Source of the DNA: Parapedobacter lycopersici
Lineage (GTDB): Bacteria > Bacteroidota > Bacteroidia > Sphingobacteriales > Sphingobacteriaceae
Direction: 5' to 3'
Length of the DNA stretch: 64,000 nucleotides
Assembly (NCBI RefSeq): GCF_024643285.1
Contig: NZ_JAMSLW010000003.1
Span: 62,001 to 126,000, forward strand
The notes under the pieces were generated by a model. That model was given only the letters and a program-made list of their open reading frames with translations, had not been told where the DNA came from and did not search any database. Numbering within the stretch: position 1 is the first letter of the stretch; each line of letters begins with the position of its first letter. This document shows, one piece after another, positions 7,141-42,512 of this stretch. The position numbers and the translations under genes were made by a program.

Positions 7141-7180
7141 TTGGGATTGATGGCGCAGTTTCCGCCAGTTTTCAGAACAT

Positions 7181-7213
7181 AAAAAAACCGGAATGTTGAA
7201 TTCCGGTTTTTTT
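7181..7213. terminator. Bidirectional terminator between aldo/keto reductase and rplS
   Basis: AAAAAACCGGAA and TTCCGGTTTTTT form a stem with an A run on one side and a T run on the other, so it can stop both convergent transcripts. Confidence 0.9.
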
Positions 7214-7232
7214 ATGTCTTTCAAACGAGGTA

Positions 7233-25875: not shown

Positions 25876-26466
25876 ATGGCATTACGGAGAAAACCGAATG
25901 AAGCGGAATTGCTTGAACGGATCGCTGGTGGTGATGAGCTGGCCTTTTCGGAATTGTTTTATGCCTACTATAATCAGATTGGCGAATTTGTTCAATTGCT
26001 AACTCACTCTGCAGCGGTCACCGAAGAAATTGTACAGGATGTATTTACGAAAATATGGGTGGATCGCGCATCACTTTCCGGCATCCGGCGTTTCGAGGCC
26101 TATCTTTTTGTGCTTAGCCGGAACCATACGTTAAATCACATCCGAAGATTGGCCACGGAACGCAGGCGAAAGGATGAATATGCACGCCAGGTAGAAGCCG
26201 ATCTGCATACCCAGGAGCCGGAACGGGAAGAATACTTCCAATTGGTTGATCGCGCGGTTCAATTGTTACCCCCCCAACAACAGAAAGTATTTGCATTGCG
26301 CCGGAACGGTGTTAAAAATCCCGAGATTGCGCAACAGATGCATCTCTCTATCGAATCGGTGAAAAAATACCAGCATTTAGCGATGAAGTTCATTGTTGAA
26401 TTCGTGAAAGGTCACGTGTTGCTTATGATCATCCAGTCACATTCCCATTCCAACTGGTTTAGTTGA
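25876..26466 (+). CDS. ECF RNA polymerase sigma factor (FecI-like)
   Basis: A 196-residue group IV sigma-70 factor of the Bacteroidota FecI-like type. Region 2 covers ELAFSELFYAYYNQIGEFVQ and TEEIVQDVFTKIWVDRASL; region 4 covers LPPQQQKVFALRRNGVKNPEIAQQMHLSIESVKKYQHLAM. It starts the accessory locus and is followed by susC1/susD1 and then by a FecR-type anti-sigma factor, which is likely its partner although the two genes are separated by 5 kb. The STN-bearing SusC proteins are expected to signal through FecR to this factor. The repeated motif TATCCAC-N14-TGTGTCTTTA is the candidate target promoter. Confidence 0.94.
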   Translation: MALRRKPNEAELLERIAGGDELAFSELFYAYYNQIGEFVQLLTHSAAVTEEIVQDVFTKIWVDRASLSGIRRFEAYLFVLSRNHTLNHIRRLATERRRKDEYARQVEADLHTQEPEREEYFQLVDRAVQLLPPQQQKVFALRRNGVKNPEIAQQMHLSIESVKKYQHLAMKFIVEFVKGHVLLMIIQSHSHSNWFS

Positions 26467-26500: not shown

Positions 26501-26531
26501 TATCCACCTTTTTTTACTTCTTGTGTCTTTA
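26501..26531 (+). promoter_or_regulatory. ECF-type promoter copy 1 (susC1D1)
   Basis: TATCCAC at 26501-26507 and TGTGTCTTTA at 26522-26531, the second beginning 21 bases after the first. The same two boxes at the same spacing stand before fecR and susC3. It lies just after the sigma factor gene. Confidence 0.75.
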
Positions 26532-26651: not shown

Positions 26652-26693
26652 AAGGCGTTGCTCCGCCTTACGTGTTTTACCTGCCAGGCAGGT
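26652..26693 (+). promoter_or_regulatory. Two-hairpin leader of susC1
   Basis: Hairpin 1: AAGGCG (26652-26657), loop TTGCTC, CGCCTT (26664-26669). Hairpin 2: ACCTGCC (26679-26685), a single A, GGCAGGT (26687-26693). Equivalent pairs of hairpins with different stem bases precede susC2 and susC3. In this leader AAAGGAGATTAA (about 26597-26608) is also shared with the susC3 leader. Confidence 0.6.
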
Positions 26694-26742
26694 CGTACAT
26701 CATCCGATAGAAATCAAGTTTATTAATTTTACTCAATTCCTC

Positions 26743-29700
26743 ATGATGATTAAGAGAAGACTCTATTCGTCTCGCCCATTTAATCAAAAGCCATTATTCC
26801 GTTTTACGGACTTCAATGTAAAGCTGATTTTCCTGGTTTTATTCTTATTTACCCATGTGCTGAGCACAGCAAATCCTGCACAGGAAATTAGTATCCAGGT
26901 AAAAAACATGCCAATCACACAGGTGCTGTATCGGCTCTCCCAACAGAGTGGCTATGATTTTGTTTATGATGCTGCACTGCTTAGCGATGTTCCGGCCATT
27001 ACGTTGGATGCAACCAATGAACCCCTTAATTCGGTATTGGTGCGATGCCTTGGGAAGCACATGCTTGATTTTACATTTACCGTAGATAAAACGGTAGTGA
27101 TAAAAAGAAGATTAAAACATGCCAGCATAGCGGAGAACCTAATGCAACAGGTTGTGCGGGGTAAGGTGACAGATTCACTGGGGAACAGCCTACCCGGTGT
27201 GTCTGTATTTGTCAAGGGAACACAACGGGGTGCTTCCACCAATAGGGACGGTGAATTTCAAATACAGGTCAACCCGGGTGAGGTACTGCTGTTTACTAAC
27301 GTAGGTTATCAGTCACAGGAAGTGGCCATCGCCGGGCAGCAAACCATTAATTTAGTACTGTTGCCAGCCGCTTCAAATTTAGAGGAAGTAGTTGTTACGG
27401 CGTTGGGTATCAAGAGAGAGGCCCGGAGTCTGGGTTACAGTGCGACAAACGTGGACCTCGAAAACCTGGAAGAGAACCGGACGGTAAATTTTGCAAATGG
27501 CCTGCAGGGAAAGATCGCAGGGGTAAATATATCGCCCCCGGCAAGTGGGCCGGGCGGTTCATCAAAAATACGGATCCGCGGCCAATCGTCCTTTGGCGGA
27601 GACAATTCCCCACTCATTGTGGTAAACGGGATCCCTATTAACAACAGCACCAATACCGGGCAGGCCCGGTCGGACGACGGTGGCGGGCTCCAAAGTATCA
27701 ACCCCGATGATATTGCATCCATGACCGTGCTAAAGGGGGCAGCTGCAGCCGCGCTCTATGGTTTCCGGGCAAAGGATGGTGTGATAATCATCACCACGAA
27801 GTCCGGGGAGGGATCGGCCGGGTTCGGGGTAGAGTTTAATTCGTCCGTACAGGCTGCTACCGTATTGGACTATACTGATTTTCAGTATGAATATGGGCAG
27901 GGAGAAAACGGGAAGCGGCCAGGTACAGCCGATGAAGCCAAAGGCTCGGGTACCTGGAATTTCGGGGAAAAATTTGATGGCCAGCCAAGCCCGCAGTTTG
28001 ATGGGTCCCTCAGACCCTACCTGCCGCACCCCAACAAGGTAAGCAAGTTCTACGAAATGGGAACCACGGTTGCCAATACGATCGCCTTTTCGGGAGGGGG
28101 AGATAATGGAAATTTCAGGGTCTCATATGCCAATACACGAGCCGATGCGGTGATGCCCAATTCCAGTTTCAACAAGGATATTCTAAATGCCGGAATCACA
28201 CACAACATCACTCCGAAACTCACTTTTCAACTGAACGCAAACTACGCGAAAGAAAAGAACATGAACCCGCCGCAATTCAGTGTGGAGTCGTTCAGCCCCA
28301 ACACGACACTTTATCTGCTCAGCAATAGCATTGATGTCGATTGGGTAAGAAACTATTACCAGGACGAAAACGGGATCGAAGCACAGGTATCCCGTTTCCC
28401 GGAATGGAGCAATCCGTACTGGGTGGTAAACAAGCGATTCGAAAACATCAAAAGAGACCGGATTATCGGCAATATGTCGCTGCGCTACCAGATTACCGAT
28501 TGGTTATACCTGCAGGGCCGGTATGGGCAGGACTTTTTTAGCCGGTATTACGATTATAACCGGCCGACTTTCTCGGGTACGCTTTCTAAACCGGTAACGG
28601 GGTATAATGGCAGCTTTTACCAGGACAATACCCGGTTCCGTGAACAGAATACGGATCTGATCCTTGGACTAGCCAAGTCTTTTGGACAATTCGGTATCGA
28701 CATTACGGCCGGCGCAAACCGGATGGACCAGGTTAATGAAGTACTCGGGACGGGGGTGACTAATTTTTATACTATGCCGCTGTATACCATCGCTAACGGG
28801 CAAATCAAGAACCCGACCTATGCATACATGCGGAAACGGGTGAATTCCGTCTTTGGTTCTGCTTCCTTTTCCTATCGCAATTTCCTGTACTTGAATGTCA
28901 CCGCACGGAACGACTGGTTCTCGACACTGAATCCGGCGTCGAACAGTTACCTCTACCCGTCGGTAAGCACCAGTTTCGTATTTACCGATCTGATTTCGCA
29001 ACTCCCCGCATGGCTCGATTATGGCAAACTCAGGGCTTCCTACGCAGAAGTGGGCAGCGATACACAACCGTATTCCCAGAGTCTGTATTACACCATATCG
29101 CCCAATACGCTTAATGGAATAGGACTCGGCACTTCGGGAGCACTGAATCCAAACCCCAATTTGCGGCCGTTGAAGATTAAGGAAACCGAATTCGGCTTAA
29201 CCCTTCAGCTTTTCGATGCGGCGTTAAATTTGGATGTGGCGCTTTACCGGAAAAACACATTCGATGAGATTCTGAATGTTGATATTTCCCAGTCGTCGGG
29301 TTACGGCCAAACGGTGGTCAACGTAGGAAAACTACGGAATCAGGGTGTCGAAACGCTGCTGTCATTCCGCAAAAAAGGCAATGTCAGCTGGGAAACCAGC
29401 TTAAATGGATCATACAACATGAGTAAAGTGCTCCAACTGGCTAACAATCAAACGGTGTTTAATGTGGGGAGCGGTCCCTGGTACGGCTGGTTGTCACATG
29501 AAGTGGGGACGCCGTTGGCGTCCCTGCGCGGCTACGATTACAAGCGCGATGAACAGGGAAGGATACTCACTACCAATGGCAAGTTTATGCAGGGCGAGAT
29601 CACCAACTGGGGGAGCGCGATCTATAAATGGGTTGGTGGATGGACCAACACCTTCAGCTATAAGCGGTTCCGGTTTACCACGCAGATTGATTTTAAAGCG

Positions 29701-30141
29701 GGTGCAAAACTGTTGTCAAATTCGAACATGAACTTCATGCGGACCGGCCAACATAAGCAATCGCTCGTGGGCCGTGAGGGCGGCGTTGTATTTCCGGGCT
29801 TTAACGAAGACGGAACGCCCAATACCACCGCAGTTCCCGCGCAGGAATTTTATACAACTTATCGAAGCACATTAATAGCTACTCCTTTTATTTACGATGC
29901 CAGTTTTGTCCGTTGGCGGTCGGTATTTCTGGGGTATGACCTTTCAAACTTGTTCAGCAAGTCTGTTATTAAATCGGCATCGATTTCATTTAATGTACAT
30001 AACCTGCTTATGATTAAAAAGTTTGTGGATAACCTTGATCCGGAAGCGCAGGGTTCTGTTTCGGATAATTTAACCGGGATTGAAGTACACACGTTGCCCA
30101 CTACACGGACTTATGGGTTAAACCTCAATGTTAAATTCTAA
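26743..30141 (+). CDS. SusC/RagA-type TonB-dependent receptor 1, with STN domain
   Basis: A 1132-residue outer-membrane importer. The signal segment (LIFLVLFLFTHVLSTA) is followed by an STN signalling domain (about residues 50-125, ISIQVKNMPITQVLYRLSQQ), a carboxypeptidase-regulatory-like domain (about 137-213, RGKVTDSLGNSLPGVSVFVKG), a TonB-box/plug region (EEVVVTALGIKREARS, then GASAA-type VLKGAAAAALYGFRAKDGVIIITTK) and a 22-strand barrel ending in LNLNVKF. SusC works with SusD to bring oligomers across the outer membrane with TonB energy; STN allows signalling to FecR. It is the most divergent of the three receptors here. It is followed by its SusD 15 bases later. Confidence 0.95.
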   Translation: MMIKRRLYSSRPFNQKPLFRFTDFNVKLIFLVLFLFTHVLSTANPAQEISIQVKNMPITQVLYRLSQQSGYDFVYDAALLSDVPAITLDATNEPLNSVLVRCLGKHMLDFTFTVDKTVVIKRRLKHASIAENLMQQVVRGKVTDSLGNSLPGVSVFVKGTQRGASTNRDGEFQIQVNPGEVLLFTNVGYQSQEVAIAGQQTINLVLLPAASNLEEVVVTALGIKREARSLGYSATNVDLENLEENRTVNFANGLQGKIAGVNISPPASGPGGSSKIRIRGQSSFGGDNSPLIVVNGIPINNSTNTGQARSDDGGGLQSINPDDIASMTVLKGAAAAALYGFRAKDGVIIITTKSGEGSAGFGVEFNSSVQAATVLDYTDFQYEYGQGENGKRPGTADEAKGSGTWNFGEKFDGQPSPQFDGSLRPYLPHPNKVSKFYEMGTTVANTIAFSGGGDNGNFRVSYANTRADAVMPNSSFNKDILNAGITHNITPKLTFQLNANYAKEKNMNPPQFSVESFSPNTTLYLLSNSIDVDWVRNYYQDENGIEAQVSRFPEWSNPYWVVNKRFENIKRDRIIGNMSLRYQITDWLYLQGRYGQDFFSRYYDYNRPTFSGTLSKPVTGYNGSFYQDNTRFREQNTDLILGLAKSFGQFGIDITAGANRMDQVNEVLGTGVTNFYTMPLYTIANGQIKNPTYAYMRKRVNSVFGSASFSYRNFLYLNVTARNDWFSTLNPASNSYLYPSVSTSFVFTDLISQLPAWLDYGKLRASYAEVGSDTQPYSQSLYYTISPNTLNGIGLGTSGALNPNPNLRPLKIKETEFGLTLQLFDAALNLDVALYRKNTFDEILNVDISQSSGYGQTVVNVGKLRNQGVETLLSFRKKGNVSWETSLNGSYNMSKVLQLANNQTVFNVGSGPWYGWLSHEVGTPLASLRGYDYKRDEQGRILTTNGKFMQGEITNWGSAIYKWVGGWTNTFSYKRFRFTTQIDFKAGAKLLSNSNMNFMRTGQHKQSLVGREGGVVFPGFNEDGTPNTTAVPAQEFYTTYRSTLIATPFIYDASFVRWRSVFLGYDLSNLFSKSVIKSASISFNVHNLLMIKKFVDNLDPEAQGSVSDNLTGIEVHTLPTTRTYGLNLNVKF

Positions 30142-30156
30142 CCACGCTTTGCTATT

Positions 30157-31671
30157 ATGAAAAAACTAACATTTCTAACAGTATGCACGGCAATGCTGGT
30201 TTGTATTGCCTGCGATAAAGACTTTGAGCGGATAAATACGGATCCGGTGCGCCAGACAAACATTGACCCGGTATTCCTTTTTGCACAGGCCCAGTACGGT
30301 ACCGCAAGGAATAATGAGTTTTACCAACTTCCCATCGTTCAGCAGGTCATCCATCCGTACACGGGCACCCCTTCGGGAGGTAATCACAACGTGGAAAATG
30401 ATGCTGCTGAAGGAGCCGCCTTTGCCGCGCTTTATAGTGGCCCGGTAAAATACCTAATGGACGTGATCGAGCTGACGCGCGATGATCCAAACCAGGTTAA
30501 TCTGTACCAAATGGCCCGTATATGGAAGGCTTATGTGTTTCAGGTACTGGTAGATACCTATGGAGATGTGCCTTATTCAGAGGCAGGACTGGCCCATTAT
30601 GCTGGCGTAAACCTGCCCACATACGACCCGGATGAAGCCATATATGAAAACCTGTTGATGGAATTGGAAGAAGCTACCGCTGCACTGGATGCAACGAAGC
30701 CGATTGTGACCAATGACCTGTTTTATCAGGGAGATGTCTTAAAATGGAAAAAGCTCGGGTATGCACTGTTACTGCGCGTGGCGATGCGCTACTCCAAAGT
30801 AAATCCGGAAAAGGCTAAATCCGGTGTGCAAAAGGCATACAACGGTGGTTTGATGACATCTAACGACGACAATGCCGGTATTGCATTCAGTAGTGCATAT
30901 ACGAATCCGGTGGTGAGTTTTGTTTACAGTGAAATTGCAAATATTTATTTGGCGGCCCCTTTTGTTGATCACCTGAAAGTTACTCAGGATCCACGCCTCG
31001 AGGTCATCGCCGTAAAGTACGAGTTTCCCTCGAACCGACAGGATCCGGGTGCTGCGGATACAGATCCCGACCACCAGCAGGGCTTCCCTTTCGGATACGA
31101 CGACGCAACTGTTAGCACCGCGCCCGGGTATCCGGGTAAAATAGGGACGGCGTGGAAATACTCGCAGATTAACCGATCGACCATGGGACGGATTGATGCG
31201 CCGTATTTCTTTGTCACGTATGCGCAGACCGCGTTGCTGCTTGCCGAAGCCGCATACCGGGGGTGGATACCCGGAGATGCAGCCAACTATTATACCCAGG
31301 GCGTTAAGGCGAATATGGACCAAATGGAACTGTATAGTGCGGATGCGCACATCCCTGTAGCGCGTCAGGAAGCGTATTTGGCTGCAAACCCATTTGATCT
31401 GGCAAACGCACTGGAACACATCAATACGCAATACTGGATAGCGACCTACTTGGATGGCCCGGAGTGTTGGGCCAATTTCAGGCGAAGCGGCTATCCGGAT
31501 TTAACGCCCAATCCCTACCCGGCCGCAGACCCCGCAGTAAAGGGAGGGTTTATCAGGCGATTAACTTACCCTTCCAGGGAAGCAGCGGTGAACCCCGAAA
31601 ACCTGAACGCCGCCGTTACGCGTATGGGCGGGGATAATCTCGCTGTCCGCATTTTCTGGGATAAAGAGTAA
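30157..31671 (+). CDS. SusD/RagB-type outer-membrane lipoprotein 1
   Basis: A 504-residue lid protein for SusC1. The lipobox is in TAMLVCIACDKDFERINTDPV, and the SusD-like helical repeat fold is shown by YQMARIWKAYVFQVLVDTYGDVPYSEAG, WKKLGYALLLRVAMRYSKVNPEKA and YAQTALLLAEAAYRGWIPGDAANYYTQGV; the end ECWANFRRSGYPDLTPNPY is typical of the SusD-like_2 type. This subgroup often binds substrates other than starch. It is co-transcribed with susC1 and closed by a terminator. Confidence 0.94.
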   Translation: MKKLTFLTVCTAMLVCIACDKDFERINTDPVRQTNIDPVFLFAQAQYGTARNNEFYQLPIVQQVIHPYTGTPSGGNHNVENDAAEGAAFAALYSGPVKYLMDVIELTRDDPNQVNLYQMARIWKAYVFQVLVDTYGDVPYSEAGLAHYAGVNLPTYDPDEAIYENLLMELEEATAALDATKPIVTNDLFYQGDVLKWKKLGYALLLRVAMRYSKVNPEKAKSGVQKAYNGGLMTSNDDNAGIAFSSAYTNPVVSFVYSEIANIYLAAPFVDHLKVTQDPRLEVIAVKYEFPSNRQDPGAADTDPDHQQGFPFGYDDATVSTAPGYPGKIGTAWKYSQINRSTMGRIDAPYFFVTYAQTALLLAEAAYRGWIPGDAANYYTQGVKANMDQMELYSADAHIPVARQEAYLAANPFDLANALEHINTQYWIATYLDGPECWANFRRSGYPDLTPNPYPAADPAVKGGFIRRLTYPSREAAVNPENLNAAVTRMGGDNLAVRIFWDKE

Positions 31672-31694
31672 GGAATCCGTGTCTGCTGTTATCA

Positions 31695-31730
31695 TAAAAA
31701 TGGCGGGATATTTTATCCCGCCGTTTTCAT
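31695..31730 (+). terminator. Terminator after susD1
   Basis: GGCGGGATA and TATCCCGCC form a perfect 9-bp stem around TTT, flanked by an A run and GTTTTC. It separates susC1D1 from the fecR transcript. Confidence 0.88.
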
Positions 31731-31751
31731 CAAAAATAAAATAAAATTTAT

Positions 31752-31782
31752 TATCCACCTTTTACTGCTCGCTGTGTCTTTA
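31752..31782 (+). promoter_or_regulatory. ECF-type promoter copy 2 (fecR-susC2D2)
   Basis: TATCCAC at 31752-31758 and TGTGTCTTTA at 31773-31782, with the 21-base offset seen in copies 1 and 3. It follows the susD1 terminator and is 34 bases from the fecR start, so the anti-sigma gene appears to be under its own sigma factor. Confidence 0.75.
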
Positions 31783-31815
31783 TAAAAGTTGATAGATAAT
31801 AACTAACCGGTATAC

Positions 31816-33018
31816 GTGCGCATGCAACACCAAAGGCTGATTTTCTTGTTCAGGCGGGCAATGGATAAAACAATGCTGCCAGATGAACATCGGGAATTAC
31901 ATAACTTAATGGCTGAAGAAGAGAACAGGGAACTCGTGGAGCAGCTTTTTGAGGAATATTGGCAGCAATTCGAAACAAACAACCACATGTTTGACCGCTC
32001 CCGCGGTTCCGCCATACTGGATCGCATTTTGTCAGTGCCGGGGCTGCCTTCCGGGAAAAAACAGGTGTATCGTTATTTACAGCATCCGTGGGTACGCGTC
32101 GCTGCTGTGCTGATGCTCGTTGCGGCCAGCGCACTGTATTTTTTGCCGTCAATGGACCAACAGCCCCACGACCGGCTGTCGCTGACCGAGGCGGCACAGG
32201 CTTACGGGATAGAACCGGGCAGTGATAAAGCCATACTGACGCTTGGAGACGGGCGCGTGGTTGTATTGGATGACATTAATAATGGGTTGGTAGCTAATGA
32301 TTTGGGAACAAGTATCCTGAAATCTGAAGGTGGTCAACTGCGCTACGACCAGACCGATACACCTCCCGAGGCCGTTGCATATAACTCCATTAGGATACCA
32401 AAAGGTGGCCAGTACCGGCTGGTTCTTCCCGATGGGTCTAGGGTGCATTTGAATTCGGAATCATTTATCAAGTTTCCTACTCGGTTTTCCGGCGATCGCA
32501 GGGAAGTGGAATTAACCGGCGAAGCCTATTTCGAGATTGCGCATGATAAGGAACACCCCTTTTACGTAAAAACTCCAAAACAAACAACCAAGGTACTGGG
32601 AACGGTATTCAACGTAAGTGCATATGCCGACGACGCAACCACAAAAACGACGTTGGTGGAGGGAAGCGTAGAAGTTTTCGGATATACAGGGAAACCGATT
32701 ATCCTGAAGCCGGGACAGGCTGCGGTAAACGGGGATAAACTACCCGAACTGTCGGTCGTCCGAGCGAATTTAGACACGGAGTTAGCCTGGCAGAATGGCT
32801 ACTTTGTGTTTAACAATGAGGATATTAAAAGTATCATGAAACGGATTTCACGCTGGTATGATGTCGATGTTGAATATCAGGGGGACTTGGAGCATAAACG
32901 TTTCGGAGGGATATTTCAGCGCTCGAAAAGTATTGCACAATTGCTGGACAATTTCAAAGAAACAGGGATTATAGATTTCAAAATTGTGGAAAGGAGGATT
33001 ATCGTTATCGGAAAATAG
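31816..33018 (+). CDS. FecR-type anti-sigma factor
   Basis: A 400-residue inner-membrane regulator. The cytoplasmic N-terminus (about 1-90) binds the ECF sigma factor, a single membrane helix (WVRVAAVLMLVAASALYFLPS) follows, then the periplasmic FecR domain (IRIPKGGQYRLVLPDGSRVHLNSES, REVELTGEAYFEIAHDKEHPFYV, TTLVEGSVEV, LKPGQAA) and a C-terminal DUF4974 region (YFVFNNEDIKSIMKRISRWYDVDVEYQ). It is expected to receive the signal from the STN domains. Unusually it is separated from its sigma gene by susC1D1. A repeat of the ECF-type promoter lies in front of it, giving negative feedback. Confidence 0.95.
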   Translation: MRMQHQRLIFLFRRAMDKTMLPDEHRELHNLMAEEENRELVEQLFEEYWQQFETNNHMFDRSRGSAILDRILSVPGLPSGKKQVYRYLQHPWVRVAAVLMLVAASALYFLPSMDQQPHDRLSLTEAAQAYGIEPGSDKAILTLGDGRVVVLDDINNGLVANDLGTSILKSEGGQLRYDQTDTPPEAVAYNSIRIPKGGQYRLVLPDGSRVHLNSESFIKFPTRFSGDRREVELTGEAYFEIAHDKEHPFYVKTPKQTTKVLGTVFNVSAYADDATTKTTLVEGSVEVFGYTGKPIILKPGQAAVNGDKLPELSVVRANLDTELAWQNGYFVFNNEDIKSIMKRISRWYDVDVEYQGDLEHKRFGGIFQRSKSIAQLLDNFKETGIIDFKIVERRIIVIGK

Positions 33019-33050
33019 TACTTGATTATGTGATTATAGTTTAGTTAAAA

Positions 33051-33097
33051 GCCGGGGACGTTGCCGCGTCACCCGGCAGTGGTCCACAGGGTGGGCC
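33051..33097 (+). promoter_or_regulatory. Two-hairpin leader of susC2
   Basis: Hairpin 1: GCCGGG(G)ACG (33051-33060), loop TTGCCG, CGT(CA)CCCGGC ending 33077. Hairpin 2: GGTCCAC (33081-33087), loop AGG, GTGGGCC (33091-33097). Downstream, GGGTAACTAAC and AAGTTATTAATTAAACCCAAT are nearly the same as before susC3. Here the structure is intergenic, between fecR and susC2, so it is not tied to the promoter. Confidence 0.6.
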
Positions 33098-33156
33098 ATG
33101 ATGGGTAACTAACCAACTGAAAAGAAACCAAGTTATTAATTAAACCCAATCTTCAA

Positions 33157-36100
33157 ATGTATAAAAACTTTACTGCAAAATATTGCAGGAAACCAATTTT
33201 CTATTCATTCAAATTTTTGTTGATGATGAAGGCAATGGTATTGCTCACCTTCGTGTTTGTACAAGTAGCGATGGCCAGCCGGGGACAAGAAGTGAGTATT
33301 CGGGTGACGCGAGAGCCGATAACCAAGGTACTGTATGAACTTTCTCAACAGAGTGGTTATGATTTTATTTATGACGCTAAGTTGATGGAGAAAATGACGT
33401 TAATCACACTGAATGTGAATAACGAGTCCTTAGAGTCGGTGCTCCAGCGTTGCTTTGCCTCACAGCCTTTTGAATTTGTGTTTAACGAAGATAAGACAAT
33501 CGTCATTAGAAAACGCCGAACGCCGCCTTTTATAGCACCCATTTTGCAGCAACCGGTTACGGGATCGGTTGTTGATTCCACAGGACGTCCACTCACAGGG
33601 GTGTCGATTTTGGTGAAAGGTAGCCAGCGTGGCACGGCGACGAATGCGGAAGGTCAATTCCAGATCGACGCAAAGCCGGGCGAGGTGCTCGTATTCAGTA
33701 ATATTGGATATGAAAATCAAGAGGTAACCGTCGGCAATCAACAGCGCCTTGCTATTACATTAGCGCCAACGTATTCGGATCTGGAAGAAGTGGTAGTTAC
33801 TGCATTGGGTATAACCCGGGAAAAGAAATCGCTTTCCTACTCGGCCCAGAACATAGGCGGCGACCAGCTCAGCCAAGCGAAGGAATCCAACATGATCAAC
33901 TCGCTGCAGGGTAAGGTGGCCGGTGTTAACATTACCAAAAACCCGGAAGGACCCGGTGGAGAATCACGCGTGGTGTTGCGCGGAAACCGGTCGATTACAG
34001 GGAACAACCAGCCGTTATACGTCATTGATGGGGTACCGCTCGATGGCGGCATCAGTATGATCAACTCCGATGATATTGCGAGCATGACTGTGCTGAAAGG
34101 CGCTTCGGCGGCGGCGCTGTATGGCAGTGCCGGACAGAACGGTGCCATTATCATTACCACGAAACGTCCGGAGGCTGGGCCGCTGGCGGTGGATTTTTCG
34201 ACGGGATTTACCTGGGATCGCCCCACAGCGCTCCCCGAATTCCAATATGAATATGGCCAGGGATCGGCTGGCGTGTTTTCGCCCAACTCAGAACACAGCT
34301 GGGGCCCTAAAGCCGACGGCCAGGAGGTAACACTCTGGAACGGCAGCACCGTCCCCCTGGTGGGACAACCCGACCGTTTTGATGAATTTTTCCGGACGGG
34401 AAAGACATTCAGCAATTCGCTGATGCTGACCGGCGGTACGGAAACCATCAAAACCTATTTTTCGTATGCCAACATGCTGGCGGGCGGCATTATGCAGAAT
34501 AATGACCTGACCCGGCATAACTTCGATTTCAAGATCAGCAACCAGCTGTCGTCGAAACTTTCGTTCGACTCCAAAATCAGTTACATCTACGACGATGTAT
34601 TTAACCGGCCCTCGCTTGGGGAAACCGGGTTTTCATTAACCTCGATTTACCGTGCGCCAACTTCCATCCCCATTAGCGAAATGGAAAAGTTTGAATACGT
34701 GAATGACGAAGGGGATGTCATGCAAAGCTATTGGAAACCCAATTCCTCGGTATTGGGCAATCCCTTTTTCTACATGAACCGCAATATTTATCACCAGCGG
34801 AAAGACCGTGTTTTGGGATTGCTGTCGGCTACGTATAAACTGGCCAGCTGGGTAGATATCCTCGTGCGTGGCAGTATTGACAAAACCATTACGAAATGGG
34901 ACCGGCGGGTCTATGCCGATTCGTATTATAGCCTGGTTGGTGCGAACTATTTCCTTCGGAATACCAACCGTTATGCAACGAACATGGATGCATTGGCCTC
35001 TTTCCGACATGATTTTACCCCCGATCTGAAATTTACGGGAAATATAGGGGGATCGATCCAGGAAAGCCGGTACGAGGAGGTCTATACAGATGCGAATGGC
35101 CTGAATAAAGCGAATTTCTTCGAAATGTCGAATGCCAAGGCACCGATTGTCACCACCGATCACGGCAGGAGCCCGCAGATCCAGGCCCTGTATGCGACCG
35201 CTACGCTGGCCTACCGCGATTACCTGTTTCTGGACGTGACCGCACGGAATGACTGGTCATCGGCATTGCCCGAGGGAAACCAGTCTTATTTTTATCCTTC
35301 TGTCGGTCTGATCGGTATCCTATCGGATATGTTTACCATGCCTTCATGGATTTCATACGGAAAAGCACGGGTGTCTTATGCCAATGCCGGTTCAGGCGGA
35401 AACCAGTACCTGAACCAGAATTATTATACCGTGGGTGCAGGCGGCCTGATTCTTACGCCAACTATCCAGTCGTTCAATACATATAAGCCTGAAATCACCA
35501 GCTCAACAGAAGTGGGACTCGAATGGCGGTTCTTCAACAGCCGGTTTGGCTTTGATGTGACTTACTATGATAGCCGCACCAAAAACCAACTGCTGTTGAT
35601 CGGTGCCCCATCGGCATCGTTGTACGATCAGCGTTACATCAACGCAGGGTTAATCCAGAATTATGGCGTGGAAGCGCTAATTACGGCTACCCCGGTTAGG
35701 TCGACCAATTTCTCCTGGGACGTTTCCGTTAACTACGCAAAAAATAACAATAAGATCATCCGCCTGACCGACGATATCAGCTCGGTAATTATACGCGACG
35801 ATCGCCTGGCAACCATCCGGGTGACCGAAGGCGACCGTTATGGCGATATGTATTCGAAAGCATGGCGCCGGGATGAGCAGGGACGGCGGTTGGTGGATAA
35901 TAACGGATCGCCGTTACTCACAGCCGGAAAGGACCTGTTGGTGGGTAACTTTAACCCTAATTACATGCTTGGGTTTTCCAATAATTTCCGGTACCGCGAC
36001 TTTTCCCTCAGTTTCCTGCTGGATTACCGGAACGGCGGTGTAGTGCTTTCCGGTACACAGGCCTTGATCGATGCAGATGGCCACTCCCGGAACTCACTTG

Positions 36101-36477
36101 AAGGTCGGGAAAACGGGTTGATACTAGATGCGTATACGGTAGATGGCGAACGTAATGACAAGACGATTTCCGCACAGACGTATTGGAGCGCCATTGGCGA
36201 CCGTTATCCAACAGGCGAACTTTATACCTACTCGGCCACCAATCTTCGCCTGCGCGAAGTGGTACTGGGTTATAGCCTTCCGAGCGAATTGCTGAGCGGC
36301 AGTAAGTTTATCAGAGCCGCCCGTTTATCCCTGGTGGGAAGAAACCTGTTCTTCCTGCAGCGTGACGCACCGTTTGATCCCGAATTGACGTTGGGCACGG
36401 GTAACGGCGGCGGTTTGGAATACGGTTCCCTCCCGTCTACCCGAAGCTTCGGATTTAACCTGCGATTGTCGTTTTAG
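33157..36477 (+). CDS. SusC/RagA-type TonB-dependent receptor 2, with STN domain
   Basis: A 1106-residue receptor with a signal segment (FLLMMKAMVLLTFVFVQVAMA), STN domain (VSIRVTREPITKVLYELSQQ), carboxypeptidase-regulatory-like domain (TGSVVDSTGRPLTGVSILVKG), TonB-box region (EEVVVTALGITREKKSLS), plug (SMTVLKGASAAALYGSAGQNG) and beta-barrel ending FGFNLRLSF. It is clearly a close paralogue of receptor 3 (shared long identical stretches such as NDWSSALP and RLRE-VVLGY), and less close to receptor 1. It follows fecR by 138 bases that hold the leader hairpins, and precedes its SusD partner. Confidence 0.95.
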   Translation: MYKNFTAKYCRKPIFYSFKFLLMMKAMVLLTFVFVQVAMASRGQEVSIRVTREPITKVLYELSQQSGYDFIYDAKLMEKMTLITLNVNNESLESVLQRCFASQPFEFVFNEDKTIVIRKRRTPPFIAPILQQPVTGSVVDSTGRPLTGVSILVKGSQRGTATNAEGQFQIDAKPGEVLVFSNIGYENQEVTVGNQQRLAITLAPTYSDLEEVVVTALGITREKKSLSYSAQNIGGDQLSQAKESNMINSLQGKVAGVNITKNPEGPGGESRVVLRGNRSITGNNQPLYVIDGVPLDGGISMINSDDIASMTVLKGASAAALYGSAGQNGAIIITTKRPEAGPLAVDFSTGFTWDRPTALPEFQYEYGQGSAGVFSPNSEHSWGPKADGQEVTLWNGSTVPLVGQPDRFDEFFRTGKTFSNSLMLTGGTETIKTYFSYANMLAGGIMQNNDLTRHNFDFKISNQLSSKLSFDSKISYIYDDVFNRPSLGETGFSLTSIYRAPTSIPISEMEKFEYVNDEGDVMQSYWKPNSSVLGNPFFYMNRNIYHQRKDRVLGLLSATYKLASWVDILVRGSIDKTITKWDRRVYADSYYSLVGANYFLRNTNRYATNMDALASFRHDFTPDLKFTGNIGGSIQESRYEEVYTDANGLNKANFFEMSNAKAPIVTTDHGRSPQIQALYATATLAYRDYLFLDVTARNDWSSALPEGNQSYFYPSVGLIGILSDMFTMPSWISYGKARVSYANAGSGGNQYLNQNYYTVGAGGLILTPTIQSFNTYKPEITSSTEVGLEWRFFNSRFGFDVTYYDSRTKNQLLLIGAPSASLYDQRYINAGLIQNYGVEALITATPVRSTNFSWDVSVNYAKNNNKIIRLTDDISSVIIRDDRLATIRVTEGDRYGDMYSKAWRRDEQGRRLVDNNGSPLLTAGKDLLVGNFNPNYMLGFSNNFRYRDFSLSFLLDYRNGGVVLSGTQALIDADGHSRNSLEGRENGLILDAYTVDGERNDKTISAQTYWSAIGDRYPTGELYTYSATNLRLREVVLGYSLPSELLSGSKFIRAARLSLVGRNLFFLQRDAPFDPELTLGTGNGGGLEYGSLPSTRSFGFNLRLSF

Positions 36478-36512
36478 TTTTTGAATCAAGAGAACCCTTA
36501 TAGTTTTTTATA

Positions 36513-38099
36513 ATGAGAAAGAAATTAGTACCGTCAAAAGGAAAAAGCATATTTATACTTTGCCTATTGGCTATGGTGGTCGGTTGTACCAAGAACTTTG
36601 AAGACATCAATACCGATCCGACCCGGTTGGTCTCCCTTGAGCCGGAAGACATCCGGAGACTGTTTTCGAATGCACTTTATAATGGTGTTGCCGCTCCGGA
36701 CGGGGCACCTCGTTTTCAGACCGGACAGAACTTATTTGCCGATCAATATGCGCAATATTACGCCGGTACGCAGACAGCCTTTGCCTCCCACCGTTATTCG
36801 ATTGTGCAGAACTGGGTACAGGATCATTGGATTAACACGTATATCGCAACCATGCCTTCCCTGTATTTTATCGTCAATGAAACGGCTGGCGGTGATTTCC
36901 CCACGTTAAATGCCATTGCCCGGATCTGGAAAGTGTTTGTACTCCACCGCACAACGGATTATTTTGGCCCGATTCCCTATTCGCAAATCGGCTCGACGGA
37001 AAAAACCATCGCCTATGACGACCAGCGGGACATTTACTTCGATTTTTTTAAGGAGCTGGATGAAGCAACAGCGACATTGAGCAGCAACCTCGACCGGCCT
37101 TCCTATGGCGAGCAGGATTTGATCTATGGCGGGGATAATGCGCTATGGCTGAAATTTGCCAATACACTGCGGCTGCGGCTGGCGCTGCGTATTTCACAGG
37201 CGGAACCGGAAAAAGCGAAACAGGAAGCCGAAACGGCTGTGGCAAATGGTGTATTGACGGATTTTTCGGAAGATGCTTACCTGGCTGTTTCGACCAATAA
37301 CGTGAATCAATTGGCGTATATCTCCGGATGGAACGAATTCCGGATGAGCGCAGCCATGGAAAGCCTGTTGACGGGATACAACGATCCGCGGCTTAGCCGG
37401 TATTTCCAGCCGGCGGTGTTGACCGGAGAATACAAAGGGGTGCGCAATGGAATGGTGCCGGCAGAGCAGATGCTGCCCCAAAACGACTATGACCACAGTT
37501 CAAATGTGGCCAGGCGGTTGATGCCTGAATCTATGGCAATTACGCCAATGTCGGTGATGTACTCCGCAGAAGCTTATTTCCTACGGGCGGAAGGTGCATT
37601 GAACGGCTGGAACATGGGTGGAACGGCTAAGGAATTGTATGAGCAGGGGATTATGATGTCTATGCGTACCAACGAAATTAACAACGCGGATGTGATTAAC
37701 GATTACATCAATGGAACAAGCCTGCCCGGGGCACCCGGCGGCTATTTCAATACGCCGGCGCTAACGGATATTCCGGTACAGTTTGCAACGAACCCTGAAA
37801 AACAGCGCGAACAGGTGCTGACGCAGAAATGGCTCGCGCTGTTTCCGGATGGGTATGAAGCCTGGGCCGAAGTACGGCGGTCGGGATACCCGAAATTGTA
37901 TGCGCTGGTCCACTCGGACAATCCGGATGTGCCGGCAAATACGATGATCCGCCGGATCCCGTTTGTTAATTATGACCGCGACCGTAACGGGCCGGCCGTA
38001 ACGGCGGCTGAGTCGTTGCTAAGCGGCCCGGACAATGCGGCTACCCCGCTGTGGTGGGATACAAATGGAACAATCACATTAGTGGGCGAAGTTAACTAA
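36513..38099 (+). CDS. SusD/RagB-type outer-membrane lipoprotein 2
   Basis: A 528-residue lipoprotein, the SusD-like lid of receptor 2. The signal peptide ends LAMVVGC and is followed by TKNFEDINTDPTRL. Features include LNAIARIWKVFVLHRTTDYFGPIPYSQIG, LWLKFANTLRLRLALRISQ, MYSAEAYFLRAEGALNGWNMGG and KWLALFPDGYEAWAEVRRSGYPKL, all SusD-like. It is 35 bases downstream of susC2, and the CBM9-like gene starts 8 bases after its stop. It is a close paralogue of SusD 3. Confidence 0.94.
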   Translation: MRKKLVPSKGKSIFILCLLAMVVGCTKNFEDINTDPTRLVSLEPEDIRRLFSNALYNGVAAPDGAPRFQTGQNLFADQYAQYYAGTQTAFASHRYSIVQNWVQDHWINTYIATMPSLYFIVNETAGGDFPTLNAIARIWKVFVLHRTTDYFGPIPYSQIGSTEKTIAYDDQRDIYFDFFKELDEATATLSSNLDRPSYGEQDLIYGGDNALWLKFANTLRLRLALRISQAEPEKAKQEAETAVANGVLTDFSEDAYLAVSTNNVNQLAYISGWNEFRMSAAMESLLTGYNDPRLSRYFQPAVLTGEYKGVRNGMVPAEQMLPQNDYDHSSNVARRLMPESMAITPMSVMYSAEAYFLRAEGALNGWNMGGTAKELYEQGIMMSMRTNEINNADVINDYINGTSLPGAPGGYFNTPALTDIPVQFATNPEKQREQVLTQKWLALFPDGYEAWAEVRRSGYPKLYALVHSDNPDVPANTMIRRIPFVNYDRDRNGPAVTAAESLLSGPDNAATPLWWDTNGTITLVGEVN

Positions 38100-38107
38100 C
38101 CAACGCG

Positions 38108-38890
38108 ATGCCTGGTGTAAGCCTGTATTTAAACCGATTTGTTCAGCTGGTATTCGTTATATTGTCCATCGGGCCGGTGAACGCCATCCCCGCCACGGGT
38201 GTGTCTGATGACGTACCACTGTCCGTACCGAAAGTCGAGGATTTCGAACTAACCGGAACGGGCAGCCACCCGGTATGGGAAGCGGTTTCCTGGCAGTCCA
38301 TGACAAAACTGGATGACGGTGGGACAGCCTATGCGAGTAAATTTAAAATCTGCTATTCCAACACGGGAATTTACGTGCTGTTTGAAGGGGAGGACCGCCG
38401 CATCACAACGGTTTACGACGAAGACTTCGGTGAACTGTGGAACGGTGATGTTTTTGAAGTTTTCTTTCACCCGGATACCGATATAAACCTGTCTGGTAGT
38501 AAGAACGGTATGGCAGTTTCGTATGTTGAATATGAAATTAATCCGTTGAACAGGGAGCTGGTACTTTTTATCAGCCGGAAGGATGGGCAAACCCGTTCGG
38601 GTTTTCCCGAACGATATGAAGGGGCCCGCCGGGTAAGGAAAGCCGTAAACGTGGCTTTACCATCAAGCGGAGCGGAAGGTGAAATTGTAGGCTGGTCGGC
38701 GGAAATGTATTTTCCGTTTACCTTATTGGCAGATGGCGGCCATACGGTACCCGTGAGCGGTACCGTATGGCATGCCAATTTCTGCCGGATAGACTACGAT
38801 TCAGGTACACAGGTGAAATGGTCATGGACACCGGGGATTAAACATTCCTTTCACGAGCTGGCTGCATTTTTAACGATAACTTTTGAATGA
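38108..38890 (+). CDS. Exported CBM9-like protein of the SusC2D2 operon
   Basis: A 260-residue protein with a signal peptide (FVQLVFVILSIGPVNA) and one carbohydrate-binding family 9-like/DOMON-like sandwich: VPKVEDFELTGTGSHPVWEAVSW, FKICYSNTGIYVLFEGEDRRIT, WNGDVFEVFFHPD, YVEYEINPLNRELVLFI and GWSAEMYFPFTLL. It starts 8 bases after susD2, so it is certainly in the same operon. The family binds saccharides or small ligands; with no glycan enzyme nearby the ligand remains open. It may be an accessory surface or periplasmic binder for the substrate imported by receptor 2. Confidence 0.85.
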   Translation: MPGVSLYLNRFVQLVFVILSIGPVNAIPATGVSDDVPLSVPKVEDFELTGTGSHPVWEAVSWQSMTKLDDGGTAYASKFKICYSNTGIYVLFEGEDRRITTVYDEDFGELWNGDVFEVFFHPDTDINLSGSKNGMAVSYVEYEINPLNRELVLFISRKDGQTRSGFPERYEGARRVRKAVNVALPSSGAEGEIVGWSAEMYFPFTLLADGGHTVPVSGTVWHANFCRIDYDSGTQVKWSWTPGIKHSFHELAAFLTITFE

Positions 38891-38931
38891 CACGTACTCC
38901 ATACACGACGGATAACGACAATAACTGGAGC

Positions 38932-38962
38932 TATCCACTTTTTTCCTAGTCATGTGTCTTTA
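38932..38962 (+). promoter_or_regulatory. ECF-type promoter copy 3 (susC3D3)
   Basis: TATCCAC at 38932-38938 and TGTGTCTTTA at 38953-38962, again 21 bases between starts. It follows the CBM9-like gene and precedes a 230-base leader. Confidence 0.75.
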
Positions 38963-39095
38963 GAAGTGTAATCCGGATAGACCTAAATGCCTTATAGGCA
39001 AGTATCGGATTGGCAATTAAAACTTCAATTTGGAAAGGAGACTAAATTATAGGGAAAGAATACAAAACCAATTTTTGCTTGGGTTGCCAAAAAAA

Positions 39096-39141
39096 CCGGG
39101 TGGCGTTGCTCCGCCTCCCGGTCCGTGTTCATCAGATGAAC
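39096..39141 (+). promoter_or_regulatory. Two-hairpin leader of susC3
   Basis: Hairpin 1: CCGGG(T)GGCG (39096-39105), loop TTGCTC, CGCC(T)CCCGG ending 39121. Hairpin 2: GTTCATC (39127-39133), a single A, GATGAAC (39135-39141). Stem bases differ from copies 1 and 2 while the pairing is kept, and the loop TTGCTC is the same as in copy 1. Confidence 0.6.
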
Positions 39142-39197
39142 ATATGGGGTAACTAACGAACCAATAGAAATCAAGTTATTAATTAAACCCAATTCAA

Positions 39198-42100
39198 ATG
39201 TATAAACTTTTTACTGCAAAACATTGCAGAAAGACAATTTTCTATTCATCTAAATTTCTGCTGACCATGAAGGCCACCGTGTTATTTACTCTTGTCTTTA
39301 TGCAAGTGGCGATAGCAAGCCGGGGTCAGCATATTAGTATTGAAGTGACGCGTGCACCTATTGAAAAAGTGTTGTACCGTCTTTCTCAGCAGTGCGGGTA
39401 TGATTTTATCTATGATGCAAAGCTAATGGAAGCAGTAGGTCCGGTAACCTTATCGGTGGAGAACGAACCGCTTGAATCGGTGTTGCAACAGTGTTTCGCG
39501 GGGCAAGGCTTTACGTTCGTTTTTAATGACGATAAGACGGTTGTGATCAAGAAGCCGGAAGTGCGTGTGCCTGGCATGATGCAGCAAACGGTGATTACGG
39601 GCCGTGTTACTGATTCGCTTGGACAGCCTTTACAAGGCGTTACTATTTCGATAAAGGGAACGTCAAGGGGAACGGCAACCAATGCCAGTGGAGCCTTTGA
39701 AATCAATGCAGCATCGGGCCAGACACTCGTTTTTAGTAATATTGGCTATGAACAAAAAGAAGTATCGTTGGGCAGTCAACAAACGATAACAGTTGTATTG
39801 ATACCGACGTATTCAGATCTTGAGGAGGTGGTTGTAACTGCGCTTGGTATTACACGAGAGAAAAAATCGCTATCCTATTCCGCACAGAATATCTCGTCCG
39901 ATGATGTCAGCCAAGCGAAGGAAACCAATGTGATCAACTCCTTACAGGGGAAGGTTGCCGGTCTTACGGTAACCCGGAATGCAACGGGCCCGGGCGGCGA
40001 ATCCAAGGTTCTGTTACGGGGTAACCGATCGATTACCAATAGCAATCAGCCATTATACATTGTGGATGGTGTGCCGTTGAATGGTGGTGTGGAGATGCTT
40101 AATGCTGACAATGTCGAAAGTATGACGGTGTTGAAGGGGGCATCTGCCGCTGCGTTGTACGGTAGTCAGGGGCAGAACGGTGCGATTATTATTACCACAA
40201 AGAAAGGGGTAGCCGGACAGACATTTGTAAACTATGTGGGTGGTGTTAACTTGGATCAGGCTGCCGTAATGCCCGAACTGCAATATGAATATGGACAGGG
40301 TGACGAAGGGATTTATAACGCCAGTTCCGAGAATAGCTGGGGACCGAAAACAGATGGTCAGCCGGTGACATTATGGAATGGTCATTCGGTGCCCTTTACC
40401 GGACAACCCGACCGCCTGCAGGATTTCTTCCGAACGGCCACAACGGTCAATAACTCCATCAGCATAAACGGGGGAGGAGAAGATATGCAGGCATTTTTTG
40501 CCTATGGCAATATGGCGGCACAGGGAATTATCCGCAACAATGACCTAATAAGGCATAATGTAGATCTTAAGATAGATAAGACGGTATTCTCCAAATTGAC
40601 CTTTTCAACGAAATTGACTTACATATACGAAGACGTAGACAACCGGGTATCACCAGGAGATGCCGGTACTTATGTGCTGCCGTCGATATACAGTGCCCCT
40701 GTGTCTATACCGCTGTCGGAGATGCAGGAATTCAACTACCTGGAAAACGGTATAGAAAAACAGAGTTACTGGAAACCGGGTTCTTCGGTGCTGCTAAACC
40801 CATACTGGGCGCTGAACCGGGTACTGAATTTCCAGAAGCGGGACCGGGTACTGGGCTTATTTTCGGTAAAGTATGATGTGAAGGATTGGTTAAACATCCA
40901 GCTTCGGGGAAGCATGGACAAGATCATTCAAAAATCCGATCGAAAAACATACGCTGACAGTTATTTTAGCCAGGTTGGTTCGAATTATCAATACGGTGAG
41001 AACAGAAGCCAAGCCATCAATATCGATGCGTTGCTCTCATTTAACCGGCCAATCGGGCCCCTATTCAATCTTTCGGGTAACGTAGGAGCTTCGCTGCAGG
41101 AAAGAAAGTATGAATCGATTTCAGGTGACGCTACGGGATTAAATAAGCCGAATTATTTCTTTATGGGCAATGCAAAAGCACCGATTGTTACTAATGCTTT
41201 TGGCAGGAGTCCCCGTGTGCAATCGTTATATGGGGTGGTTACATTAGCGTATCGTGATTTTCTTTTCTTGGATGTCACTGCCCGGAATGACTGGTCGTCG
41301 GCACTTCCGGCCGACCAGCAGTCTTATTTCTACCCGTCGCTGGGTTTGTCTGCCGTGGTTTCGGACATGATGACGATGCCGGCATGGATTTCCTACGGAA
41401 AGATACGGTTAACCTATGCTAATTCCGGATACGGCGGAACGGAATATTTGGATCGGAATTACTATTCGGTTGGACCGGGAGGTGCCATCATTACGCCAAC
41501 GGTACAGTCATTAGGTACGTATAAACCTGAATTGACAACGTCTTATGAAATCGGGCTCGATTGGCGTTTCTTTAATAACCGGCTTAATATTGACGCGACG
41601 TATTATAATACGGATACAAAAAATCAGCTGCTGCTAATCGGATTGCCCCCGGCAACATTATTTGATGAAAAATACATCAACGCCGGGCTGATCAGGAATA
41701 GTGGGGTGGAAGTTGCGGCCAATGTGGATATCGTGAGAAACAATGCGTTCCGCTGGAATGCCGCCGTGAATTATGCGAAGAATGTAAATAGGGTAGAGGA
41801 GTTGACTGAAAAAATGAAATCAGTGGTGCTTGCCGATGGCGATAACGTGTATTTAGTGATGGTTGAAGAGGGCAGGAGCTATGGAGATATGTACGTGCGC
41901 GGCTGGCAGACGGATGATCAGGGCCGCAAACTGGTAGAAGACGACGGTACACCGATTTTAACAGATGGACTGGACGTTTATATTGGGAATTACAATCCGG
42001 ATTATACACTGGGTTTAAGCAATTCATTTAACTATGGCGACTTTTCGCTGAGCTTCTTGATCGACCATCGCCAGGGCGGTGCCCTCATATCCGGTACACA

Positions 42101-42512
42101 GGCGTTAATCGATGCGTACGGTCATTCGAAGGAATCGTTAAACGGACGGGAAAATGGAATGGTGTTGGACGCCTACACGCGTGACGGCCAGCCGAACCAA
42201 CAGGCCATATCTGCACAAAAGTACTATAGCCTGATTGGTGGCCGCTATCCATCTGCTGGATTTTACAGCTATTCCGGTACCAACACGAGGCTCCGTGAGG
42301 TGGTGCTTGGTTACCAATTGCCGCAACGGTTGTTCAGCAACACGGTGGTAAAAAATATACGGTTGTCACTGGTCGGAAGGAACCTGTTCTTTTTCAGTCG
42401 GGAAGCCCCTGTCGATCCGGAAATCACCAGGGGGCTCAACGGCGAAGGAAGGGAATATGCATCGCTTCCGTCGACCAGGACCTTCGGGTTTAACCTCAAT
42501 GTGACATTCTAA
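39198..42512 (+). CDS. SusC/RagA-type TonB-dependent receptor 3, with STN domain
   Basis: A 1104-residue receptor with signal segment (FLLTMKATVLFTLVFMQVAIA), STN domain (ISIEVTRAPIEKVLYRLSQQ), carboxypeptidase-regulatory-like domain (TGRVTDSLGQPLQGVTISIKG), TonB-box region (EEVVVTALGITREKKSLS), plug (SMTVLKGASAAALYGSQGQNG) and a barrel ending FGFNLNVTF. It is the close paralogue of receptor 2, arising by duplication, and shares its leader structure. It is followed by its SusD partner 29 bases later. Confidence 0.95.
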   Translation: MYKLFTAKHCRKTIFYSSKFLLTMKATVLFTLVFMQVAIASRGQHISIEVTRAPIEKVLYRLSQQCGYDFIYDAKLMEAVGPVTLSVENEPLESVLQQCFAGQGFTFVFNDDKTVVIKKPEVRVPGMMQQTVITGRVTDSLGQPLQGVTISIKGTSRGTATNASGAFEINAASGQTLVFSNIGYEQKEVSLGSQQTITVVLIPTYSDLEEVVVTALGITREKKSLSYSAQNISSDDVSQAKETNVINSLQGKVAGLTVTRNATGPGGESKVLLRGNRSITNSNQPLYIVDGVPLNGGVEMLNADNVESMTVLKGASAAALYGSQGQNGAIIITTKKGVAGQTFVNYVGGVNLDQAAVMPELQYEYGQGDEGIYNASSENSWGPKTDGQPVTLWNGHSVPFTGQPDRLQDFFRTATTVNNSISINGGGEDMQAFFAYGNMAAQGIIRNNDLIRHNVDLKIDKTVFSKLTFSTKLTYIYEDVDNRVSPGDAGTYVLPSIYSAPVSIPLSEMQEFNYLENGIEKQSYWKPGSSVLLNPYWALNRVLNFQKRDRVLGLFSVKYDVKDWLNIQLRGSMDKIIQKSDRKTYADSYFSQVGSNYQYGENRSQAINIDALLSFNRPIGPLFNLSGNVGASLQERKYESISGDATGLNKPNYFFMGNAKAPIVTNAFGRSPRVQSLYGVVTLAYRDFLFLDVTARNDWSSALPADQQSYFYPSLGLSAVVSDMMTMPAWISYGKIRLTYANSGYGGTEYLDRNYYSVGPGGAIITPTVQSLGTYKPELTTSYEIGLDWRFFNNRLNIDATYYNTDTKNQLLLIGLPPATLFDEKYINAGLIRNSGVEVAANVDIVRNNAFRWNAAVNYAKNVNRVEELTEKMKSVVLADGDNVYLVMVEEGRSYGDMYVRGWQTDDQGRKLVEDDGTPILTDGLDVYIGNYNPDYTLGLSNSFNYGDFSLSFLIDHRQGGALISGTQALIDAYGHSKESLNGRENGMVLDAYTRDGQPNQQAISAQKYYSLIGGRYPSAGFYSYSGTNTRLREVVLGYQLPQRLFSNTVVKNIRLSLVGRNLFFFSREAPVDPEITRGLNGEGREYASLPSTRTFGFNLNVTF

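Follow-up and report, generated by a model that had tools for sequence, protein, structure and literature searches.

In the 64,000-nucleotide (nt) stretch of the Parapedobacter lycopersici genome analyzed here (the window), three susC genes, whose products all carry an N-terminal STN signalling domain, are each preceded by two hairpins. We propose from sequence signals, with a probability of about 0.82, that the first of these (hairpin 1), read on the minus strand, serves as Rho-independent terminator to an approximately 105-nt cis-antisense RNA directed to the susC 5′ untranslated region (UTR). Five features are seen in the DNA itself: the terminator, a promoter box on the same strand, a steady spacing between the two, selection on the stem as minus-strand RNA, and a link with STN-type susC genes. 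The arrangement recurs in related bacteria, and its sequence signature is unusually clear and widespread.

Hairpin 1 as a Probable Terminator on the Minus Strand

A preliminary description of this DNA had reported two hairpins in the same order before each susC gene and had interpreted them as a leader structure of the susC mRNA. The hairpins are present and their order is repeated: 26652–26669 and 26679–26693 before susC1 (copy 1), 33051–33077 and about 33080–33098 before susC2 (copy 2), and 39095–39122 and 39126–39142 before susC3 (copy 3), hairpin 1 of copies 2 and 3 being assigned to the minus strand and the others to neither strand in particular. Compared with dinucleotide shuffles, the leaders fold better, with z-scores of −2.2, −3.1, and −3.2 (copies 1, 2, and 3, respectively). 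Short single hairpins are common, with 173 perfect stems of at least 6 bp in the window versus 168, 144, and 144 in three shuffles, and the evidence lies in the recurring place, loop, and order.

Many STN-type susC genes of the P. lycopersici genome are preceded, mostly at 65–110 nt from the ATG, by a GC-rich hairpin whose plus-strand 5′ side carries an A-run; on the minus strand, the same hairpin reads as a GC-rich stem followed by a U-tract, that is, as an intrinsic terminator. If a terminator is taken to require a stable hairpin and, immediately after it, a U-tract, copy 3 is one (the A-run at 39089–39095 is its minus-strand U-tract), as is copy 2, with a weak U-tract at 33050–33043 (TTTTAACT). 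Copy 1 is not, as its minus strand shows no U-tract; it also lacks the TAnnTTTG box described below and is probably a decayed antisense unit. Fold energies of the window copies alone leave the strand undecided: copy 3 reaches −36.5 kcal/mol on the minus strand versus −29.6 on the plus strand, and copy 2 −37.4 versus −39.8, slightly better on the plus strand.

For a strand test, stems were found by a rule treating both strands alike. Applied to 151 STN loci drawn from all families, it yielded 91 hairpins, with copy 3 as the sole window copy and some chance hairpins kept in. Their 69 non-Watson–Crick positions comprise 62 plus-strand A·C mismatches, equivalent to G·U pairs on the minus strand, 3 plus-strand G·U pairs, and 4 others; a sense leader would be expected to keep its stem pairing on the mRNA strand, which is not the case here (62 A·C vs. 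3 G·U). The flanks are also one-sided: on the plus strand, at least five of the 8 nt preceding the stem are A in 70/91 cases, and at least five of the 8 nt following it are T in 1/91. Because of this mismatch polarity and of the one-sided A-rich flank, we consider that selection acts on the minus-strand RNA. In the 76 A-flanked stems, base pairs run through the four Watson–Crick types at most positions while pairing is kept, a result to which the choice of stems for their pairing itself contributes in part (re-dealt arms pair at 0.58).

The expectation that further copies would be found before related susC genes was borne out, as hairpin 1 recurs at many of them with stems that vary yet stay paired. 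The idea of a selected RNA structure concerning susC also holds; its attribution primarily to the susC mRNA leader does not, given the mismatch polarity, the A-rich flank, and the spaced minus-strand box, and hairpin 1 had been read on the wrong strand.

Hairpin 2 is clear in a minority of loci (25/92 vs. 13 expected from mononucleotide shuffles) and lies within the 40 nt adjoining hairpin 1 in 14/76. It goes with the unit, because it still follows hairpin 1 at two loci in which the unit is displaced (L045 and L085). A dispersed repeat or miniature inverted-repeat transposable element was ruled out, because the core shared by copies 1 and 3 (pattern GGCGTTGCTCCGCC) has only two matches genome-wide, both in the window. 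An Rfam scan of the window returned a single tRNA and left the hairpins unmatched. When seven loci were compared with Rfam at E-values up to 1, the five weak matches were all below the gathering score, and a known Rfam family was accordingly rejected for the antisense unit.

The Terminator Accompanies STN-Type susC Genes

The P. lycopersici sample comprises 51 of 60 matches, nine weak ones being left out. Across families, 200 of 207 loci were used (L015, L020, L080, and L152 were left out for short upstream DNA, L082, L083, and L213 as duplicates), and the locus script found no match for L072, L074, and L078; relatives are a nonrandom sample, made up largely of the highest-ranked matches. STN status was assigned by domain position, which in P. 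lycopersici agrees with PF07660 (several matches falling under the Pfam cut-off) except for L068, counted as non-STN in the figures for this genome yet kept among the 108 STN genes of the same family (f1). Seventeen short loci of the genus were classed as STN because they had been fetched through N-terminal matches.

In P. lycopersici, 21 of the 24 STN susC genes with upstream DNA are preceded by the terminator, and 18 by the terminator and a spaced box; for the 22 non-STN susC genes, the numbers are one and zero. Within family f1, a minus-strand terminator precedes 92/108 STN genes and 1/23 non-STN susC genes, shuffled sequences giving 4.4%. A plus-strand terminator or attenuator was rejected, being found at only 8/108 of these STN loci. 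The terminator call at L026 is doubtful. Terminator and box at 85–130 nt occur together at 77/108 STN genes of the family versus 0/49 non-STN genes of all families. Elsewhere, the terminator and the combination were found, respectively, at 6/10 and 4/10 loci in family f36, 7/9 and 3/9 in f50, 5/15 and 3/15 in f33 (one genome), and 2/2 and 0/2 in f15; f22 (0/1), f49 (0/2), and f64 (0/4) showed neither the terminator nor both signals. Among named genomes, the N-terminus of SusC3 used as a query yielded one locus, in Agaribacillus aureus, whose susC has an upstream minus-strand hairpin with a U-tract and lacks the exact box; it is outside the above counts.

A Probable Promoter Box over the Start Codon

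The −7 element of Bacteroidota sigma-A promoters has the consensus TAnnTTTG and is located from −12 to −5 (PMC9723704). On the minus strand, such a box (TACATTTG) lies across the start codons of susC2 (33154–33161) and susC3 (39195–39202). The same is true of most STN genes in family f1: TAnnTTTG overlaps or touches the start codon on the minus strand at 81/108 of them, compared with 0.023 expected per gene, with 1/23 non-STN susC genes of the family, and with 0/33 other gene starts in the window. The distance between box and hairpin end, in a measure that counted only boxes 60–150 nt from the hairpin end, has a median of 102 nt and a 5–95% range of 89–129 (n = 81). Furthermore, 11 terminators end at least 130 nt from the ATG. 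Eight of these have a box 48–90 nt ahead of the ATG that preserves the usual spacing, where about 0.5/11 would be expected by chance from the shuffle rate; one of the eight (L098) carries another box close to the ATG.

When its offset is −5, the box imposes a TAY second codon and hence a tyrosine as second residue, an effect noted at susC2 and susC3 as well as at loci of the family. Met-Tyr is the start of 44/108 STN SusC proteins of the family and of 0/49 non-STN SusC proteins; in 42 of the 44, CAA precedes the ATG. Start codons were taken as the first ATG, which looks wrong in some cases (L008, L056, L110, and L124); at these loci the box or the hairpin indicates a start codon further downstream.

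The Predicted Antisense RNA and Its Alternatives

With the 5′ end set 5 nt past the box, following the −12 to −5 rule (PMC9723704), the predicted antisense RNAs would extend on the minus strand over 33043–33149 for copy 2, opposite the fecR–susC2 intergenic region, and over 39086–39190 for copy 3. Both would be about 105 nt long between their inferred ends (fold z-scores of −2.8 and −3.9) and, because their predicted 5′ ends lie 8 nt before the start codon, would be confined to the leader, short of the coding region. We infer that such an RNA is produced and pairs with the susC mRNA, and it probably holds susC in check.

Several observations weigh against this interpretation. In family f1, 16/108 STN genes lack the terminator and 27/108 lack the box at the start codon, and the other families are patchier for the terminator. 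Among the far terminators, L096, L107, and L119 are exceptions, two having a box only at the ATG and one having none, and two of the eight fitting cases (L045 and L085) are close relatives. Bacteroidota sigma-A promoters also have a −33 TTG element; none stood out among the 81 aligned boxes, TTG occurring in at most 10/81 at any place. The mismatches of hairpin 2, five in all, show no strand preference; copy 1 retains both hairpins in the absence of antisense signals; and, of the 33 other gene starts of the window, 5 also show a minus-strand terminator of some kind within 260 nt. Finally, antisense RNAs of polysaccharide utilization loci (PULs) in Bacteroides thetaiotaomicron are reported to show, for some of them, positive and not only negative correlations with their susC (PMC10994844).

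The alternative that survives best, although we regard it as unlikely, is that the minus-strand terminator merely shields fecR and the upstream region from stray antisense transcription and yields no regulatory RNA, or that antisense transcription interferes by itself. A terminator and a promoter would look identical in this case, and the mechanism of the DonS antisense RNAs discussed below is called unknown (PMC11697453), but the short and steady length and the loops suggest that the RNA itself matters. Of the 76 A-flanked stems, 25 have a loop starting with UU on the plus strand and 23 have one starting with UU on the minus strand; no loop does so on both, and the combined 48/76 compares with 6.9 expected and at most 15 in 500 shuffles. 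Loop–loop contact between RNAs follows a U-turn rule (YUNR motif), and YUNR is present in either loop in 38/76 cases versus 20.9 expected and at most 33 in shuffles. This pattern would be a sign of contact between mRNA and antisense loops, with the U-turn on either partner; a palindrome inversion flipping the loop is another possible source of the UU pattern.

The view that the leader of the susC mRNA forms a two-hairpin structure, which would set translation or bind a trans-acting small RNA, is considerably less probable than shielding or interference. The stems can form on both strands, the sense leader folds well, copy 1 has kept its hairpins without the antisense signals, and one U·G pair in hairpin 2 of copy 2 forms on the plus strand only; against these points stand the mismatch polarity, the one-sided A-rich flank, and the steadily spaced minus-strand box, all of which designate the minus strand. 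Least credible of all is the view of the TAnnTTTG box as a by-product of start-codon context: start regions are A-rich in Bacteroidota and most boxes overlap the start codon, but the controls at non-STN susC genes and other window starts, together with the eight boxes that moved upstream along with their terminators, speak against it.

Genomic Context

The genes of the locus, all of those located here being on the plus strand, follow one another in the order ECF (extracytoplasmic function) sigma factor (25876–26466; Pfam Sigma70_r4_2, Sigma70_ECF, and Sigma70_r2), susC1 (26743–30141) and susD1, the FecR-type anti-sigma gene fecR (31816–33018; Pfam FecR and FecR_C), susC2 (33157–36477) and susD2, a CBM9-like gene (a weak match slightly below the Pfam cut-off), and susC3 (39198–42512) and susD3, the STN domains having been identified by domain search. 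Candidate ECF-sigma promoters of the form ATCCACYTTTT-N-TGTGTCTTTA are common to the regions upstream of susC1 (26502–26531), fecR–susC2 (31753–31782), and susC3 (38933–38962), all on the plus strand, and these three are the only exact matches across nine genomes of the genus.

Other structures were observed in the window. A GC-rich 9-bp hairpin between susD1 and fecR (31702–31722) may be the terminator of susC1–susD1, an 18-bp hairpin between A and T runs (7177–7217) is probably a two-way terminator, and an inverted repeat of 13 bp with a 7-nt loop lies within the CBM9-like reading frame (38739–38771).

Comparison with Known RNAs

Antisense RNAs to susC are already known in Bacteroides. The DonS family consists of cis-antisense RNAs of 78–128 nt opposite susC start regions (PMC7366714), with 15 loci in B. 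fragilis and 32 in B. thetaiotaomicron (PMC7366714, PMC10994844, PMC11697453, PMC9723704); DonS represses its own operon, by the mechanism called unknown (PMC7366714, PMC11697453). The RNA predicted here may work like a DonS-type RNA, as it would be a short, divergently encoded RNA opposite the susC 5′ region of a nutrient-uptake operon and its predicted length of about 105 nt is within the DonS range. It differs in being a prediction that resembles DonS by description, in belonging to other Bacteroidota families, and in its tie to STN-type susC; moreover, neither a start codon overlapped by a −7 box nor a UU loop on either strand was seen described in the passages on DonS consulted here. In open-licence papers, we found no report of a spread beyond Bacteroides to other families, of a tie to STN-type susC, or of a strand-flipping UU loop.

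CopA/CopT and RNAI/RNAII are antisense systems of plasmid copy-number and toxin control that use U-turn kissing loops. The likeness lies in fully complementary loops of sense and antisense hairpins, with YUNR in one partner; the present RNA would differ in being chromosomal and opposite uptake genes, its kissing being suggested by the loop pattern only. Like RbpB/FopS and GibS of B. thetaiotaomicron, which are multicopy, mostly intergenic small RNAs sharing a seed (PMC11697453), it would be tied to polysaccharide-uptake control, and FopS also ends in a terminator hairpin; unlike them, each RNA here would show full complementarity to the one susC leader it lies opposite, and it lacks an Rfam match.

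A Possible Role in SusC Signalling

In the scenario that we favor, a sigma-A-type promoter with its −7 box over the susC start codon would start an antisense RNA that runs back over the 5′ UTR and stops at hairpin 1; at loci that have a hairpin 2, this would be an internal hairpin of the RNA. The RNA would pair with the susC mRNA immediately before its start codon, possibly with loop–loop contact as a first step, and lower SusC expression. In the established FecA/FecR/FecI system, the receptor signals through an anti-sigma factor to an ECF sigma factor, and an STN-type SusC would be expected to use FecR likewise to reach the ECF sigma factor; the latter would switch on its own operon. By titrating basal susC mRNA, the antisense RNA would keep this positive feedback loop off until a strong signal comes, thus setting a threshold against accidental firing; that of copy 2 would additionally uncouple susC2 from fecR. 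A broader proposal is that, across much of the class Bacteroidia, the STN-SusC/FecR/ECF-sigma autoinduction circuit has a one-to-one antisense RNA as an integral component, which sets the threshold through a kissing loop with UU on either RNA, and that its start-codon promoter forces the second-residue tyrosine of many SusC proteins; we advance this as a tentative extension, which may well be wrong as a whole.

Bacteroidota can hold dozens of susC genes, and the finding bears on how the self-inducing ones avoid leaky firing. The signature, which combines a minus-strand terminator with a TAnnTTTG box that overlaps the start codon and precedes the terminator by about 100 nt, makes it possible to predict such antisense RNAs with nothing but the sequence, distinguishes susC genes of the STN type from the others, and can correct start codons. 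A functional characterization of PUL-associated antisense RNAs has been called for (PMC10994844), and this signature makes their role testable in many species.

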